This document shows, in pieces, positions 157-56,695 of a DNA stretch of 64,000 nucleotides. This DNA is from Sphagnum magellanicum (lineage: Eukaryota > Streptophyta > Sphagnopsida > Sphagnales > Sphagnaceae). How positions within the stretch are numbered: position 1 is the stretch's first letter; each line of letters starts with the position of its first letter. Below the pieces are notes generated by a model, which saw only the letters and a list, made by a program, of their open reading frames with translations, made no database searches and was not told the origin of the DNA. The stretch covers positions 14,409,061 to 14,473,060 of the forward strand of contig CM038912.1 in the NCBI GenBank assembly GCA_021904315.1. Reading direction: 5' to 3'. A program made the translations under genes and the position numbers.

Positions 157-3100
157 TTACTCCTTGTGGTCCCCAAAAAGACGTTTCCGGAAGTCAGAAA
201 CCATGCGTGGGAGCCCATCTCTCAGAGCAATCTTAGGCTCCCATCCCAGCAGGTCCTTAGCTTTGCTAATGTCAGGCTTCCTTTTATGAGGGTCATCTTC
301 TGTGTTCTCATGGAACTCAATCTTTGCATCAGGATCTATCACTTCCTTCACTATCTGTTGAAGAGAAAACTTAAAATTTCAGTATCTAAACAACATGAAG
401 CATCCTTACACAGACTAGATCAAGCACTGCAAAATTGAGCATGCTGCAGAATCTGAGTGCACAAAAGCAACTTCTGCTAACCAAGGCTTTTGAAGGGCAG
501 GAAAATAAGGCAGATTACAGATACTGTGCTTTCAACTTCAAGCTAAGAGAAATGTCCTCTGACCTCTGCAAGCTCCAACATGGTGAACTCCCCAGGATTT
601 CCCAAATTGAAAGGCCCAACATGCTCACTCTCCATCAAGCGCATTAACCCATTAACCTGCGAGCCAATGTTGTTTGCTGTCACTCCAAGTCCATCTCTCA
701 TGCCTGTACCAATATGTTAGATGTTCTCCTTAACTTTCAGACTATTTGAAACTTTTCAAGTTTCCTTCTTGGAGCCACCCAGGGAATGCATCATTAATGT
801 GACACATTGGATACAACACCTAACACTAGGTTTTTATAACCCAAATGATCATGGATTTGATGAAGATACCATGAAGCTTCCTGCTCAGAGCACAATCCAA
901 GTATCTCATGTTGAAGTATCTGCCAGGACAGTCCAACATGTTTTGTAACAATTCAAGAAGAGGGCACTTTTAGACAAAGCTAGAGATTCTTCTGTTGAGT
1001 GCTGTCTCTGTTTGTCTCACTACTATTGAGAGGGATTTTATGTAGGAACGTACCAAGTCTGAGACATATTGGAAGCTCCGAGTTTGATTTCCATCACCAT
1101 AGATGGTCATTGGTTCCTTGCGAAGTGCCTATCAATGAAACAAAATTAGAAGCTTGTTCTGACCTTCACAGATTAAAGACTGCTGCTCTCTTCCATGTGG
1201 TTGTTTATTTTGCACGTCCAGAGTTCAGAGAGCAGATCTAAGGTTTGACAGGGCACACACCTGGGCCACAAAGTTGCTCACAACACGGCCATCATCAATG
1301 CACATTCTAGGGCCATAAGTGTTGAAAATACGGGCAATGCGAACCTGCATACATAGCTTTGTAAGATACTTTTGACATTCAAAAACTTAATAGGTGACCC
1401 ATCAGGATACAAATGAGCTCCAGAATGGACATGAAAAATATGTTCTCATCTTGGACAGCAAAGCTCGTCAAGTGAACAACAAGAGAAGAATTTTGAACAA
1501 ATCATGTTGAAAACATCATCATAAGTACCAAGAACTTGTCCATACTTGCAATTGAAGAGAAAACTAAATACAATTGAGAGAAATTTCAGATCTGATGACA
1601 TATCAGTAAATAGGGGAAAAATGAAGTCAACCCTAAAAAAAAGAGTAAAAAATTGAGGAAAAAAACTGAAGAACATTTTGAACAACAGCAACCGTCATGT
1701 ACATATTCAGAGACCTTCAACAGCAACATGTTGGAAATGACAGGAATGAGCTTCAGGACCACGTAGATAGCAAGTCACAGGTAAAATCAGGGGTCTCCAG
1801 CAAAGTTTAAGGTATTGAGAATGAAAATGGACACAAACTTATAGAACAACTCAAGGAAACATACATTCACTAGTTCTCCTCTGTGATAATCCATTGCCAA
1901 TGTCTCAGCTGTACGCTTCCCTTCATCATAACAGCTCCTAACACCTGCAAACATTATGAAGGTTTGAGAGCTTTCATGGGACGTGCTCCAGACCCCTTTC
2001 TCAAGCTAGCACAAGAAAATAAGTTGTTTCCTTCCAATATCATTTGTTCTGCAGTGGATAACATGGGATCATGCAGTAGTCATTGCAGAAAGGAACAAGG
2101 CACAATCCTGTTCTTCATGTCAAATCCCCTTGCTTTTGAATGTCCCAACCACAATTTACAAAATACTGAATGAAATCCATGAAAGCTCTCAACAATAGCA
2201 TACAGTAAAACATAGGTCATTGAGCTTACCAATTGGGTTGACATTGCCCCAGTATTCTTCCTTCTGAGGATGTTGCAGGGGATCTCCATAAACTTCACTG
2301 GTACTGGTAAGCAAGAACCTTGCACCCACTCGCTTTGCCAGCCCCAGCATGTTCAGTGTCCCTACCACATTAGTCTTGTATTCTGAAGGTCAAGGATTTT
2401 CATGACAAAGTCATTCTGCATGCTGGCACTTTAGCCTAACATATTAAGTGCAGATCAGCATCTCCTGCAGAATAGAGAAGCCTTCTCCTTAGCTTTTTTT
2501 ATTCTGGAAGTTCAAATAGAAACCGTGAGCACACATGCATGGAAAGAAGAGGATATGATGGTTTTCACAGGATTGAACTTGTAATGGACAGGAGAAGCTG
2601 GGCATGCCAGATGATATATCTGATCAACCTCCAAGAGCAGCGGCTCCACAACATCATGGCGAATGAGCTCGAACCGAGGGTTACCTAAATGATGCATGAC
2701 ATTCTCCTTCCTTCCGGTAAAGAAGTTGTCAACCACGATGACACTGTCGCCTCTTGCAATCAGCTTGTCTACAAGATGACTTCCCACGAAGCCTGCTCCT
2801 CCTGTCACTACCACTCTTAATGCTTTCCGTTTCAAACCAAGAGGAATTTTGGCCCCGGTACTCATGTGTCCGATATGCTGTTGCTGTTGCTGCTTTCCGA
2901 ATGCCGACCAACTGTCGTAAGCGTTCTCATAGCCACCAAAACTATCACTTGAAGAAAGCTCTTTGTGATAGCTGATATCGTGCCTCTCTGAGAGGGGAAG
3001 ATGCTCGCTCTTACCTCGAGACGAAGAGCGAAAGCGGTACTGCGGCTGAAGCAAGAAAAAGGCAGAGGTAAGCGCTATGCCTAGGAGAATGAACAAGAGA

Positions 3101-3225
3101 CGCTGCTCCTTGAGCAGATATGGTACTGCCTTCTTCCACGCCCAATGCTTCCGAGCCTTCGTTGTGCACTGCTCGGATTCCCTAGGAATCTCATGCCGCC
3201 TATGATTCAAGATGAAGCTCGACAT
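157..3225 (-). CDS. UXS: UDP-glucuronate decarboxylase (UDP-xylose synthase), membrane-anchored Golgi type, 7 coding exons
   Basis: Converts UDP-glucuronate to UDP-xylose with bound NAD+, supplying xylose for cell-wall polysaccharides and proteoglycans. Coding exons in transcript order: 3225-2557, 2377-2230, 1944-1865, 1344-1261, 1128-1054, 656-564, 354-157. They total 1347 nt, or 448 residues, the usual length for the membrane-anchored plant type. All junctions keep frame. The ATG at 3225 was chosen because only a TTG lies further upstream in the open frame. Visible parts: a basic N-terminus; one hydrophobic segment at about residues 43-59, giving a type II Golgi topology by family; a poorly conserved stem with five glutamines at 112-116; the Rossmann motif TGGAGFVG at 141-148; [11 protein letters not shown] in the cofactor region; TSTSEVYGD at 247-255; the SDR pair Tyr278/Lys282 in SCYDEGK; and the C-terminal [21 protein letters not shown] block typical of UXS. 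Introns 2-6 are GT-AG; the last donor (GTCAGA) is weak. Intron 1 is AT-AC. The gene looks intact. The specific UXS paralogue is not resolved. Confidence 0.95.
2378..2556 (-). other. U12-type AT-AC intron (UXS intron 1)
   Basis: UXS homology requires the exon ending in V-K-T-I to join the exon starting K-T-N-V-V. Reading down the minus strand, the exon ends at ATC and the intron begins ATATCCTC, one mismatch from the minor-spliceosome donor ATATCCTT. It ends AATAC, followed by AAG (Lys). TCCTTGAC lies at 2396-2389, matching the U12 branch-site consensus TCCTTRAC, with its branch adenosine 12 nt from the intron end, inside the narrow U12 window. No GT donor near the exon edge gives the conserved protein. 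The intron is phase 0 and 179 nt long. Splicing by the minor spliceosome is inferred. Confidence 0.9.
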
Positions 3226-4149
3226 TCTTCTTGTTTCTCCGTTTCTTTTGCAGCGACGAGCCAGAGAGGAGATCAATTGGATGCGCTCCAGAACCGCATC
3301 AATCAAGAATCAACAGCCAGCGCCTGGTTGCTGAAGCCTAAACGTTACAGGAAGTTTAGTTCAATCGCAGCTCTCAGCTCCAGAGACTCTAGCAACAAAA
3401 TCCGCACTCTCCAACTTCCAAGCGAGAACGAAAACAACAGCAATGTCAAGAAGATGAAACATGGAAGAAACTCGGGATGTCGACTAAACTCCAAAAAACA
3501 GAGTACCACAACTGAGAGCAAGCAAAACAGCAGTCATATCACACCTTCCTTCAAGAAACCAGAAATTATACAAAAGAGGAAAACAAAGACCGATGAGGCT
3601 AAGTCAGATCCGTCTGTCCGTCCGTGCGTCCGTCGGCGGGAACAGTAAAGCAAGCCGTCTAAATTCTAAGCTCCACCAGCAGACGAAACCAGATCAAAGA
3701 CACATACATACATACGGAAACTAAAAGAACATGGAAACAGACAGGGCTCAAAACAATAAGAAAACAAACAGCAACAACACAAATAACACCACAAACACGA
3801 GCAAAACACACGAACATGCGCGTGCAAATCCTTGACAAGACTCTTAGCAGCAGATCCCGATGCAGTTGCCAAGGGGGAAATGGCAACTCAGGAAACAACC
3901 AGATCTGTGCACCGATCCAAAGGAGCAAAACTTTTTTGTGTACGTACGTCTCCGTCCGCTTTCTTCTCTTCTCTTTTCTCTTCTCTTGCTCTTCTCTTTC
4001 TCTTCTCTCTTTTTGTGCGTCTTGTTCACAGTCTCGACTTGCACTCGTTTGGCGCTTAACTTACTTTCCCCTAACTAAAACCCAAAAAAACCCCCGCAGG
4101 ACAAGAAGGAAACGCAGCGTTTTTAATTTATTTCCAAGAGTCTAAACGA
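3226..4149 (-). promoter_or_regulatory. UXS: UXS leader and proximal promoter with polypurine tract
   Basis: The region is upstream of the UXS start codon. On the UXS sense strand, about 3958-4014 is almost pure GA/GAA (CT-rich on the plus strand), as often seen in plant leaders and core promoters. Open frames across 3145-4145 are low-complexity readings without recognisable domains and are not genes. The transcription start is not visible, and an intron in the leader cannot be excluded. A family A repeat begins at about 4150, so the native promoter may be under 1 kb. Confidence 0.45.
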
Positions 4150-26574: not shown

Positions 26575-26592
26575 GAGTTTTTTACATACCAG
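26575..26592 (-). other. Donor-like sequence overlapping the WRKY stop codon
   Basis: The reading frame ends CCT-GGT-ATG-TAA, and G/GTATGTAA is itself a good plant 5' splice site. Either the protein ends here, or some transcripts splice out the stop and use a different C-terminus from an exon I cannot identify. I took the stop as real. Confidence 0.35.
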
Positions 26593-29500
26593 GAGGCGCT
26601 GGAGGTGGTCCTTGGCCTGATCCAGGACGGACAATATCCTCCAGAAGCCCTTGATCTGAGGCTCCCCGACTAATTTCCTGACTACTTTTCTGCAAACTTT
26701 CCTCACTAATCTGCTGACCGCCTGCACCACCTGATGAAGAAGACCTAAGAATGTTCAACCGTGCTGCAGCTTGCTGTTGCTGCTGCTGACGATCGGCCTC
26801 TAGTAGCTGCTGTCTTATATCTTGTTGGCTTCTTTGCATATTGAGTGTCACGGATCGAACAAAGTCTAGCTGCTGCCGCTGCTGTTGCTGCTGATGGTGA
26901 TGAGAACCAGCAGCAGTAGCAGCTTGAGGACTAATCAATGTGTTAGAAGAACTTGGGTTCCTATCACCCCTAGTGCTGATTGTTTCTTGGCCTGGAGACC
27001 CTGCTCTTGCTCTAGAAAGAAGTGATGAGCCGCTTTCCCCCTGCAGCTGTTGACCACTACTTGGCCCCGGATTCGTTATCATCTGCCGTCGGGTCTCCTG
27101 CTGTTGCTGCTGCTGAATGAGAGCAGTAAATGGGCCAGCTTGAGCTGATGATCCAGATGCTGATACTGAGCCACCAGCTTGCTGCAACTGCCACTGACGA
27201 GCAAACTGAAGCATGGCTGCTGAAGAAGAAGAATCCGGGGCTGATCTGATGCCAGCAGCAGTTTGACCTTGACCTTGCGGCATCTGTCTAGGAATGAGCT
27301 GGGGCAAACCTGAAGATGATGATCTAGAAAGAAAATCCTGGTGAGAGCCTGCTGTGAATTGCATCGGCTCCTGTTTAACAACAAAAGATTCTTGTAGTCC
27401 CAACAATGATCGGGGAGCTCTGAGAAGCCCCTCTTGTAAGCTGATGCTGCTGGTACTGGCCCCTGCAAGACTCGGAGCTGCAGACTGATCTACTAATTGT
27501 TGGCCAGGCGCCGCAGCACCTAACCCTACTAGACCTGAAGTACCAGGTCCTCTAGCAGCAACCGAGTGTTGTAAACTTGCAAAGTTGGATGGAGCTGGAA
27601 AGTTCAAGCCGGCGAGTCCCGGCGCCATGTGGCTTGAACCTGGAAAACCTCCAGGACCTTGGAAGCCACTGTGGGGTGGAGCGAAGAGCCCACCACCTAG
27701 TCCCAGTACTGGCCGCTCGCCGAAGAATCCATGAGACGGGGAGGATCTATGGAAGCCCGGCGTCTGATGAGTGTGCGTGCCTTCGTAGGTGGTGATGACT
27801 AAGCCTGAATCTTCACATGAGCGCTCCACTCTCTTCCTCACAGGACAATTGGGCGTTGTGCATCGATAGTAGTTTCTGCGCATGCGTAATACATGACAGA
27901 GAACATCATACAAATTGATCAATCCAAAATCTTGAGCTGCTAAAAAGTAGTTCATGATCTCATCAACAGCAATGGGATGATCAGTACGAGATCCTTGATC
28001 TAGAATTGTTTTCAAATTCCTCAGCCTGCAGATAGATGCATGGTTTGATCTTGGTACCTGGGATGGGGGCTGTTTTTGACGGCTTTCTGACCATACTTGC
28101 GCCACTTGAAGCCGTCGTCCATGATATCCACATCCGTTCTGGTCTTGATGGCGTACCGGGGCTCTCGCACCCTCTTGGCTCCGCCTTTCTTCCGTGGCCT
28201 GTTCCTGGACACAACGCGCGCACTACCCAACAAATTAACATCAGCTAGCTGCACATCCCTTTTCCTTCAACCCAAAAAATAAAATCCCATGTTCTTGCAA
28301 GCTGATCTCCCTAGTAAATTTATTACATGATCTCTTCAGAATGAATGCAAACATCATGCATAATACAATTATCATCATGCAGGAATCTGTAGCAACAGCT
28401 TCCGGCAGATTCTTCATGCTGAGCAAGAGGATTCAATTGAACAATTATATAGCCTTGAATCAGACATGTAGTCCAACAAGAACTCTAGATCATGGACTAG
28501 TTCCCACAGCAATATATATCATCTTTTGTGTCCAAGGATCATGCGCTGATTCCCACAATACGATGATCTATCGCACAATTCATGAGCAGGATCGCGACAG
28601 CTGGTGATTTGAACTAGACCAGCTCAAGAATTCTTCAAGAGCTCTCATCAGCTTGATCATCCCATGATTTCACTAAACATCCAATTAAGAACTCAAGCTG
28701 CAGCGCTCCATTCTGATGATTGCTGCACGTCTATGCTACTTTTGTTCCCATGAATTCGCTGCAGGATTTTCATGAAACCGCGTCCTGGACCCAATTGGCA
28801 ACGCTGCACCATCTCTACATGATTCTTAGAAACCAGCTAAAAGCTTATGTCTTTGGCGTAACTTCCAGGTGTACGTAGATCTATCCGCATGATCGAGCAG
28901 CTGACGCGACCTATCGTGATTTCACACCATGCATGCAAAGACTTTGACATGTACAGAAGAAGAAGAAGAAGAAGAAGATACGGCACAGCTTGCAGGATCT
29001 CTTGCCCAGCTGCAACTGCAATATCCAAGATATGATCTTCCTGGGTCATGGATTGTCAGAGCTTACAGAGAATGCTGCTGAAGTCTCTTGGACTCGGATC
29101 CAGACTTTGTAGACTGTTCTTCCCCACCAGCTTCCTCCAACGAACGCTCCGGCGTCTTCCTCTTGGCACTACTTGCGCCCTCTTCGCCCGCCGGGCTCGC
29201 TGCCGTTTGGTGTCGGCCACGGCTGCTACTCCGCCTTTCGGCGTCGTCGTCTCCCTCACTCGATGAACCCAGGGACAACGATGAGGTCGGCGTCTCAGTA
29301 TTCATCGTCGTCGACCTCCCTCTAGCTGCAACACCGGCAGCTGCTGGCGGCTCGACTGCATCAGCAGGACCTCTGGGCCCGGCGCGAGGAGCTACTGCTG
29401 GGATTGGAGTCTGCTGCATCGAGCTTATGGACTCTAAGCTAGCGGGATGCCACATTCTTCCTTGCGGTGGCCCGGCGCCATACAAAGATTCGGAGCTGGT

Positions 29501-47182: not shown

Positions 47183-49069
47183 CATTAAAAGAAATTTGAA
47201 AATCAACAACTAGATTTGTGATTAAAAATAGCATAGTCACCTAAGACAAGTGCCATAAGATAGTTAGTCGCAAAAGACATGACATGGCCATGAAATTGAA
47301 AGTGTAGTCGTAAACTTTACAACTAGGCCAGAATTCCTCGTCCATTGTCATGGATGTTCCATAATATGACATGGAACCCCAATTTGTGATAGTTGCATGT
47401 TACCAAATGTGCCATTGATGGGTGGTTAGGATTCAACCACATGGTAATTTAAAGAACCAATGGCAATAAAACATGTGGCAATTTTTCATTTGTTCAAAAT
47501 ATATATTTTATAATTATAATTATTAAATAATATAATTCATTATATTCAAGATTATAATTCATTCATTATAATCTATCCTAGGCTAGGGTAGAATAAACTA
47601 CCTAGCATAAGTTAAGTAGGTAGGTAGGATCCTATTCATTTTGTTCGAGACAAGCCTTTTAATTGGCTCATCCCATATGGCATATGCACTATGTTTATAG
47701 TGCATACCATGAATCTAGTCCATTCTTTCACCTACTTATATACTTCACAAGTTTGAAGTTGTAAACAAAGGATATGGGATAAATTTTAATGAAAGGGAAA
47801 CACTACAACACTACAACATTATCACATCCTTTCTCCCATACAAAAACATTATCATATATCAACACAATAAAATATTTACTATTTTCCTTAACTATTTATT
47901 ACCTATCCTACTTACTACCTACTACCTATCCTACTTATCACATACTACCTAGGCTACATTTAATAAATTAATTGTTTAACATAGCTAATTAATTAATCAA
48001 TTAATTAACACAAAAACATTATGACATATCCACAAAATAAAATATCTCTTGTTTAACTTATAACCTAGTTACCTACCTACTACCTACTATGTACCTAGCC
48101 TACCTAATAAATTAATTACCTAGCCTAATTTAATAAATTAATTGTTTAACATAGCTAATTAACTAATCAATTAATACAAAAACAATATGACATATCCACA
48201 AAATAAAATATCTCTTGCTTAACTTATAACCTATGTAGGTTACATACCTACTATTTATTATCTAGCCTACCTAATAAATTAATTACCTAGCCTACATTTA
48301 ATAAATTAATTCTTTAACATAGCTAATTAATTGATCAATTAATATAAAACATTATGACATCCACAACATAAAATACCTCTTGCTTAGCCTACCTACCTAC
48401 CTACCTACCTACTAGTACGTATCCTACTTATTACATACTACCTAATTAGTTGATAATTACATACTACCTAATTAATTGATAATTAAGTACCTAATTTAAT
48501 TTTTGTTAAAAATCTAACTACCACAAAAACAAAATATAAAAATGTTTTAACCAAATTGGTGAACAAAATAGTGTTATGGTGATATATAGCCAAAATTAAA
48601 ATGGTTAATCTAGATTAATGTATTGAATTAAATTATATTTATGTTGAAAATTTATGGAATTACCATGTGCACCATGTAGGCTAATTTGAGATAGTCAACA
48701 ATTTATATTGTTCATAGTTGTAAAAAGAATATAGTTGTTGTCAAATGCAATTCAATTGTCATCCATAAGTGGACAGACAAGAGAAAACAAACAAAATATG
48801 TCAAATTTTCATCTACATTTTGACTTAAAACTTTTGCACTCATATCATGCAATTACATATTTGATTAATAGTTGGTTGGACCCGTCATTTAGTCGCACAT
48901 GCAGTCGTATATACTTGCAATTGCATGGACTGATAAGATTACAAAGATCACAGTTGCAAACTAAGTAGGTTTAAACAACAATTATATTATAGTTACAAAA
49001 AGGATTTTGAAACTTATTAACATTTTCTAGACAAAATGATGGTCGAAATGGACAAGATTTCTTCTACTG
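47183..49069. mobile_element. Non-autonomous CACTA (En/Spm-like) element 3, target duplication ACC
   Basis: The left end CATTAAAAGAAATTTG and the right end (read inward) CAGTAGAAGAAATCTTG are CACTA-type termini close to those at 53003-54959. They are flanked by ACC at 47180-47182 and 49070-49072. Removing the element and one ACC restores ATAACCCACTTGAACACATT, matching ATAACCCATTTGAGCACATT in the unoccupied repeat at 59660-60330. The 1887-bp interior has no transposase and contains the 168-bp tandem array. Confidence 0.85.
47841..48490. repeat. Tandem array, four ~168-bp units rich in CCTA
   Basis: Units begin near 47841, 48011, 48177 and 48344 with AAAACATTATGACATATCC-like sequence. They carry CTACCTACCTA patches and TTTAATAAATTAATTGTTTA, and end with ATAGCTAATTAATTAATCAA. 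Spacing is 166-170 bp and the last unit is truncated. The array lies inside CACTA element 3. Confidence 0.85.
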
Positions 49070-54962: not shown

Positions 54963-56137
54963 CTTAAACAAAATGTATGAAAATGGCACATTCCCCATAC
55001 ACTAAATATACATTCATTTTCTTTATGCATTCATTTTCCACATCAAAACACATTTTTTTGTAAATTTAATTAGAATTTTTAATTCTACATGACTTGGGTA
55101 ACCTTTTGATAAATAATTTGGAATGAAAATTTTTCTTTATGTGAATCTTATGTTGTCCTGAAGTTTTATGGGTCATAGAAATTTGGGGTGTGATGATTCT
55201 AATGGTACCACCTAAGGATAAGTTTGCCCCATAAGCATCAATTTTGGCAAAGTTATTGTCAACCACATGCCTATATCACATTTGGAAAGAAATAATTACA
55301 AGAATTGATGGTGGTTGGTTTTTTGCCACATCTCATTATGGCAATGTATAGTTTCCAATTTTTTCCTAATTTCACATGTGTTACTTGACACAACAATCCA
55401 TTGACATCTAGGACTAATAGATGTCATACATTGTTAATTACCAGAATACTTGGAATGAAAATATTACAACCACCCAGTTGTTTTGCAAAAAGGATATGTT
55501 GACTTGTTTATGGAACATCTGCACTTAGCAACACTAACATGGTGTTATCCACAATTTACTTCCCACGAATGTGTCATGTTGTTTGTTTATCCGGGTTATA
55601 GGCTTTCATGTCTCTATTGGATTCATCAAATGCTTGCACCACCACATTTGTAGCTTGGGTAGAGCCTATAAACTCATTTCCTTTCTACCCCATTGATGGC
55701 TACAGTTGATCTCTTTGTTTTGTTGATGAAGTTTCGCCCTAACCCTAAAAAGAACCTCCCATAGTTAGATTTGCCACATCCCACATCTTTAAGTTTGCAA
55801 CTTGGCAAAAGACATGTATAATGCACATAGATAACAAATAGAATTATTGAGAAAAAATAGCATGTGAGTGACTTTCCATCCCTCTACTCTCGGTTCTACA
55901 AAATGACTATGATTGAAAGCACAAATGCTACTGGTGAAGGAAAAATGCAAGTGTAATTCGAAATGTTAGTTTGCGTTTGTAATTGAAATGAAGTACCTTG
56001 CTTCCTATGCATCATTTGCGATCAAAACTGATAGATATATTTTTCAAGCTCACACATTCCACATTTTAGGACTTTATGTCAAATTGTCATTCATTTAAAC
56101 CAATGTTTAAGGATTCAACATCATGTCTAACATAGCT
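54963..56137. other. AT-rich spacer, no supported gene
   Basis: A 66-codon minus frame at 55266-55066 has no known domain. Otherwise nothing recognisable. Confidence 0.4.
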
Positions 56138-56695
56138 GCAGACCACTAGTCAATTGAAATATTGTTTCTAACGCATAGGTTATTCAAATCTGACTTGCCA
56201 TAGCTCACTAAAAAGCTAATTACAAGGGGCATCTTGTTACCAAATCCTAAGCTTTGCAGCTAAACCAGCAAGAGGTTATGTTACAAAACTCGAGAGGGTT
56301 TTACAAAGGTGATAATTTAACTTGGCTACAGACCACCAGTCACTTGAAACATCATTTCTAACACATAGGTTACTCAAATCCAGCTTGATTTAGCTCATTG
56401 AGAAGCTAACTACAAAGCGCACCATCCTACCAAATCTTAAGATCTATAACTAAACCAATAAAGAGTTATGCTACTAAACCCGAAAGGGTTTTATGAAGGC
56501 AGTTGATTCAATTTGATTGCAAACAATCAGTCATTTGAAATACCATTTCTAACACATACATTATTCAAATTCAGCTTGCTTTAGCTCATTAAGAAATTAA
56601 CTATAAGGCGCAACTTGCTACCGAATCTTAAGCTTTGCAGCTAAACCAGTAAAGAATTATATTACCAAACCCGAGAGGGTTTGTGAAATCTTTTC
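56138..56695. repeat. Tandem array, three ~190-bp units
   Basis: Units start near 56138, 56328 and 56519. Shared blocks are TTTCTAACACATAGGTTA, CTTGCTTTAGCTCATTAAGA, TACCAAATCTTAAGCTTTGC, AGCTAAACCAGTAAAGAGTTAT and ACCCGAGAGGGTTTT. Divergence between units is moderate. Confidence 0.85.

Follow-up and report, generated by a model that had tools for sequence, protein, structure and literature searches.

Within the opening 3.2 kb of the window (the whole 64,000-nucleotide stretch of Sphagnum magellanicum DNA analyzed here), the minus strand contains a seven-exon UDP-glucuronate decarboxylase (UXS) gene of 448 codons running from 3225 to 157. The enzyme produces UDP-xylose, a sugar of the cell wall. 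Intron 1 of this gene is very probably a U12-dependent AT-AC intron that goes back to a shared ancestor of the plant's transmembrane-type UXS genes. This assignment draws on the splice signals, on a junction fixed by protein homology, on the retention of the signals in five paralogues whose intron interiors have diverged, and on genes for minor-spliceosome snRNAs, CENATAC, and the DIM1 family in the genome. Judged by its sequence, the intron is no different in kind from the known AT-AC class of U12 introns. The features of the gene and of related loci are collected in Table 1.

Table 1. Coordinates of the window UXS gene, its intron 1 signals, and related loci elsewhere in the genome
Feature	Position	Strand	Basis or remark
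U12-type AT-AC intron 1, phase 0, VKTI/KTNV	2378..2556	-	direct reading and human-UXS1-guided spliced alignment
5' splice site ATATCCTC	2549..2556	-	6/7 against TATCCTT at positions 2-8
Branch site TCCTTGAC	2389..2396	-	8/8 against TCCTTRAC; branch A at 2390, followed by 12 nt of intron
3' splice site AC	2378..2379	-	direct reading and signal scoring
UXS exon 1, 669 nt, starting at ATG; encodes hydrophobic segment and GGAGFVG	2557..3225	-	gene model
UXS exon 2, 148 nt, KTNV to NPIG	2230..2377	-	spliced alignment and gene model
Rest of UXS gene, introns 2-6 and exons 3-7 to stop	157..2229	-	converted from gene model
UXS introns 2-6, each GT-AG	1945-2229, 1345-1864, 1129-1260, 657-1053, 355-563	-	gene model
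U6atac copy L044	C3:15185943-15186060	-	Rfam
U6atac copy L045	C15:9968075-9968192	-	Rfam
U6atac copy L046	C4:26728283-26728400	-	Rfam
U6atac copy L047	C13:20450220-20450338	+	Rfam
CBP20 AT-AC intron (in L072), 129 nt, phase 1	C16:12550895-12551023	+	modelled by eye

The protein encoded by the window gene matches human UXS1 (PDB 2b69) with an E-value of 3.7e-137, and Pfam detects the GDP_Man_Dehyd and Epimerase families in it. It combines the UXS catalytic domain, with its GGAGFVG motif and a catalytic YxxxK whose codons lie in exon 3, with an N-terminal hydrophobic segment, which places it in the transmembrane type of UDP-glucuronate decarboxylases. Elsewhere in the window, the minus strand contains a 507-aa open frame (26585-28105) in which Pfam recognizes part of a WRKY DNA-binding domain (E 1.4e-12), and two tandem arrays lie at 47838-48414 (unit of 170 bases, 3.5 copies) and 56128-56682 (unit of 191 bases, 2.9 copies). 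No Rfam family was matched on the window, and ARAGORN, run on the window in its bacterial setting, reported no tRNA.

Intron 1 is 179 nt long and opens with ATATCCTC and closes with AAATCCTTGACCTTCAGAATAC. The upstream exon ends in GTG AAA ACC ATC, and the downstream exon starts with AAG ACT AAT GTG. Published U12 signals comprise a donor of the form ATATCCTT and a branch site of the form TCCTTAAC located 10-15 bases upstream of the 3' end (PMC2426677). The window intron carries a close version of this donor directly at the exon border, a complete TCCTTRAC-type branch site within the expected distance, and a terminal AC at a junction established independently of any splice signal. Pairing between the corresponding region of U12 snRNA and the branch site is predicted at -6.2 kcal/mol. 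Across both strands of the 439 Mb genome (31 contigs), ATATCCTC has 11,321 matches, compared with 9,562 for the same pattern read backwards. This amounts to about 1.3e-5 per position and strand, and here the donor falls at a protein-defined junction with a perfect branch site.

The junction was fixed with a purpose-written spliced aligner, guided by human UXS1 and applied to six UXS genes, in which GT-AG, GC-AG, and AT-AC introns were charged equally. Human UXS1 aligns without a gap across the junction (NPIKTL/KTN against NPVKTI/KTN in the window protein). The aligner picked AT-AC ends at the same codon in all five transmembrane-type genes and at none of the 36 other UXS introns; GT-AG was called for the 25 other introns of these five genes and for all 11 introns of the soluble gene. 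Withholding the AT-AC class cost 38, 35, 37, 40, and 47 points in the five genes and altered the residues at the junction in each. The sequence-only reading had proposed an AT-AC intron of the U12 type within the UXS catalytic domain, with its branch adenosine 12 nt before a terminal AC; its coordinates proved exact, the guided alignment selects the same ends, and the donor and branch-site scores bear out the class assignment.

It is very unlikely that the AT-AC ends reflect a misread junction and that the intron is an ordinary U2-type GT-AG intron with shifted ends. Suitable dinucleotides do lie near both ends: 12 nt ahead of the donor there is CCT|GTGAAA, and CTTCAG comes 5 nt before the intron terminates. 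Forced GT-AG or GC-AG models can also be drawn. However, these models cost 35-47 points, often require two introns, and alter conserved junction residues in all five genes; GT-AG and GC-AG models of the junction were rejected on the score loss and the altered residues. Equally improbable is the idea that the segment is not spliced at all, either through retention or through decay of the gene. If retained, the segment would introduce a stop 14 codons on, and its length of 179 nt is not divisible by three. The spliced frame, by contrast, stays open over 448 aa with the match to human UXS1 described above, and the catalytic part of exon 1, as searched, is 92-94% identical to the paralogues (98% to its own locus). 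With the frame open over its whole length, a decayed UXS gene was also set aside.

Six UXS genes were assembled from 66 genome matches: the window gene (L048), four further transmembrane-type genes (L049-L052), and one soluble gene (L053). Of the remaining matches, those at 25-37% identity were taken as other sugar-nucleotide enzymes. A 43-residue UXS-like match at C9:11763747-11763875 on the plus strand (60% identity, query residues 284-326) was left aside and may represent a sixth transmembrane-type gene or a fragment. All five AT-AC-bearing genes encode an N-terminal hydrophobic segment and GGAGFVG, whereas the soluble L053 encodes GGAGFIG and shows no hydrophobic segment in its first 120 residues. 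The AT-AC intron is thus present in all five transmembrane-type genes examined and absent from the single soluble gene, a distribution that upholds the earlier suggestion that the position of the intron can be used to trace UXS paralogues.

Donor scores in L048-L052 are 6, 6, 7, 7, and 7 of 7, and branch-site scores are 8, 8, 7, 6, and 6 of 8, with the branch adenosine 10-12 nt from the intron end. The ATATCCT donor and terminal AC occur in all five genes and the CCTTRA branch core in four; the weakest branch sites, at 6/8 each, are ACCTTAAT in L051 and CACTTGAC in L052. The automatic alignment placed the L051 branch site out of register, and its branch core was taken from a direct reading of the intron. 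As a background, one donor among the 36 other UXS introns reaches 6/7, and branch sites reach 7/8 once and 6/8 once, in two different GT-AG introns of L053, neither of which is the intron with the 6/7 donor.

The conserved signals stand out against intron interiors that have diverged. Among the paralogues, L048 pairs with L049 and L050 with L051 (each at a fourfold-site distance of 0.34), L052 stands apart, and distances of 0.85-1.27 separate these groups. With the first 8 and last 25 nt trimmed, 15 shuffles for each comparison, and L052 omitted for its length, interior identity was 0.18-0.42 between pairs (0.34-0.38 when shuffled) and 0.52 and 0.48 inside pairs (0.35 and 0.41 when shuffled). 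Retention of ATATCCT, AC, and CCTTRA against this divergence is as predicted by selection on U12 signals.

The same comparison bears on the spliceosome involved. AT-AC introns removed by the major (U2) spliceosome exist, for example in sodium-channel genes (PMC2831892), and the window intron could in principle belong among them. According to that source, U2-type AT-AC introns carry G at +5. All five introns studied here instead have CC at +5 and +6, with a U12-type branch site spaced as expected, contrary to such a reading. A U2-type AT-AC intron was rejected on the C at +5 together with the branch site, and there is very little chance that it is the correct description.

At nearly the same place, L053 (C19:4335500-4344500, sense 3507-3704) has a GT-AG intron between VK and TI, in the same phase as the U12 intron and 6 nt to its 5' side. 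This may tentatively be read as one and the same intron by descent, turned from U12 to U2 type with its two ends displaced, although we consider this somewhat less probable than not; if so, the U12 intron is older than the divergence of membrane and soluble UXS. In keeping with this, L053 and the transmembrane type share two other intron positions (NPIG/, phase 1; VSD-/V, phase 0), and 20 of 155 positions shared between human and Arabidopsis are reported to be mixed U12/U2 (PMC2426677). However, conversion needs both ends to have moved 6 nt in step, it is described as affecting AT-AC introns less often than GT-AG ones (PMC2831892), and this intron, the third of L053, keeps no U12 signal (donor 4/7, branch site 4/8). 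Independent gain is an equally possible alternative.

The U12-type intron of the transmembrane-type genes closely resembles the AT-AC U12 introns surveyed in plants (PMC7367187, PMC10639083), with which it shares an ATATCCT donor, a TCCTTRAC-type branch site (here at 10-12 nt), and an AC end. It also lies in the 5' half of its gene, where plant minor introns are reported to be enriched (PMC10639083). AT-AC introns make up 23% of U12-type introns in soybean, 26% in Arabidopsis, 13% in maize, and 22% in rice (PMC7367187, Table 2), and this range of 13-26% in four plants agrees with the rarity ascribed to them in the sequence-only reading. A text search of the literature returned no paper linking UXS to U12 or minor introns. 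UXS may nevertheless stand in the supplementary gene lists of surveys, and Sphagnum fallax is among the species of one of them (PMC10639083).

Comparison with poplar gives a mixed picture of how old the AT-AC form may be. According to PMC3629030, the pattern I genes PtUXS1/4 of Populus have six introns, like the window gene; PtUXS1 has exons of 80, 84, 75, and 93 nt, which are the lengths found in all five genes here, and the soluble poplar class has 11 introns, as does L053. However, Table 3 of that paper gives exon 2 of PtUXS1 as 145 nt rather than 148, a one-codon difference at the AT-AC intron, and its text describes all poplar UXS introns as GT-AG, in contrast to intron 1 here. Taken together, the statement on GT-AG ends and the 145-nt exon count against deep conservation of the AT-AC form.

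A second AT-AC intron in this genome provides a point of comparison. CBP20 is reported to hold a conserved U12 intron across land plants (PMC5932401), and the AT-AC intron modelled by eye in the CBP20 gene here occupies the same place. Its donor is ATATCCTC, and it contains CCTTGAC with the A 16 nt from the intron end. The published CBP20 case resembles the UXS one in that a plant gene keeps a U12-type intron at a constant position, and the U12-like CBP20 intron of this genome also has AT-AC ends. The two differ in that CBP20 is described as a single gene conserved across land plants (PMC5932401), whereas the UXS intron is shared by five paralogues within one genome.

Parts of the machinery expected to act on such introns can be recognized in the genome. 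CENATAC and DROL1 have been described as acting specifically on AT-AN and AT-AC introns (PMC11039992); CENATAC (Pfam CCDC84) is matched in three stretches within 2 kb, and the DIM1 family is matched at three places, any of which may be DROL1/TXNL4B. Hits above the Rfam gathering scores were obtained for U11 (two places), U12 (three places, one of them only just above the cut-off of 53 with 53.2 bits), and U6atac (four places). Rfam found no U4atac in the genome, with 49 of 33,459 candidates scored and a model that matched none of the control genomes. A U4atac pattern, built from the human 5' end with one base changed to fit this plant's U6atac, gave four matches compared with seven in the control direction, and Rfam found no U4atac in those four loci. 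A search for the U11-48K zinc finger gave no match in the genome; this search and those for U4atac were weak. Along with the low-scoring L051 and L052 branch sites and the U6atac variant described next, these negative results weigh against the U12 assignment.

An unusual feature of this machinery lies in U6atac. The AAGGA segment of U6atac pairs with the 5' splice site, yet all four copies found here have GCCGA in place of the AAGGA of the Rfam consensus. The consensus reads UGAAAGGAGAGAAGG, and the copies read UGAGCCGAGAGAAGG (L044 and L045), UCAGCCGAGAGAAGG (L046), and UGAGCCGAGGAGAAGG (L047). A whole-genome search for the downstream U6atac core with at most one mismatch recovered these four loci alone, and no match came up in the control direction; the core pattern had no copies outside this genome in the viral and genome contigs searched. 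L044 and L045 do not differ at any of their 118 nt, and their flanks show no BLAST similarity. Both have CCATAY at -61 and -62, TATA at -30, and a 3' run of seven T; a helix is predicted between their 5' GUUGAG and a CUCAAC close to the 3' end. Promoters of the U11 and U12 genes are similar (CCATAY at -65 to -68, TATA at -30 to -32), and L046 and L047 have neither element.

For six donors, the computed pairing of the nine-base variant segment is 0.0 to -2.3 kcal/mol, compared with -4.2 to -7.1 kcal/mol for the consensus. The UXS and CBP20 donors retain the canonical CCT despite the GCCGA in U6atac. It is conceivable, though less likely than not, that a U6atac unable to form the canonical 5' splice-site helix activates this plant's AT-AC introns, the window intron among them. 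Donor recognition would then depend on U11 together with proteins, for example CENATAC and DROL1, or on a different pairing. Possibly, a canonical U6atac gene is missing from the assembly or has diverged in its core. If a U6atac without the usual donor-pairing segment does operate here, it would bear on how AT-AC introns are recognized.

Under the standard scheme, U11 would pair with ATATCCTC and U12 with TCCTTGAC, and the U4atac/U6atac.U5 tri-snRNP, aided by the AT-AC-specific CENATAC and DROL1/TXNL4B, would then activate the intron, joining VKTI to KTNV. We infer that the window intron is ancestral and is spliced by the minor spliceosome in the plant. The supply of membrane-bound UXS would pass through this spliceosome, and that of soluble UXS, with its 11 GT-AG introns, would not. 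If the intron were retained, a stop would follow 14, 47, 20, 97, and 41 codons past the junction in L048-L052; as this stop precedes the catalytic YxxxK, unspliced RNA cannot encode the enzyme. U12 introns have been described as less efficiently spliced (PMC2952598), and splicing of the window intron might limit enzyme supply; the sequence-only reading likewise proposed that output of the enzyme may depend on minor-spliceosome activity. A rare intron class with even rarer AT-AC ends occurs in all five membrane-type UXS genes identified here, but the soluble gene lacks it. If its splicing is limiting, the Golgi-side supply of UDP-xylose would follow minor-spliceosome activity, and the cytosolic route would not.
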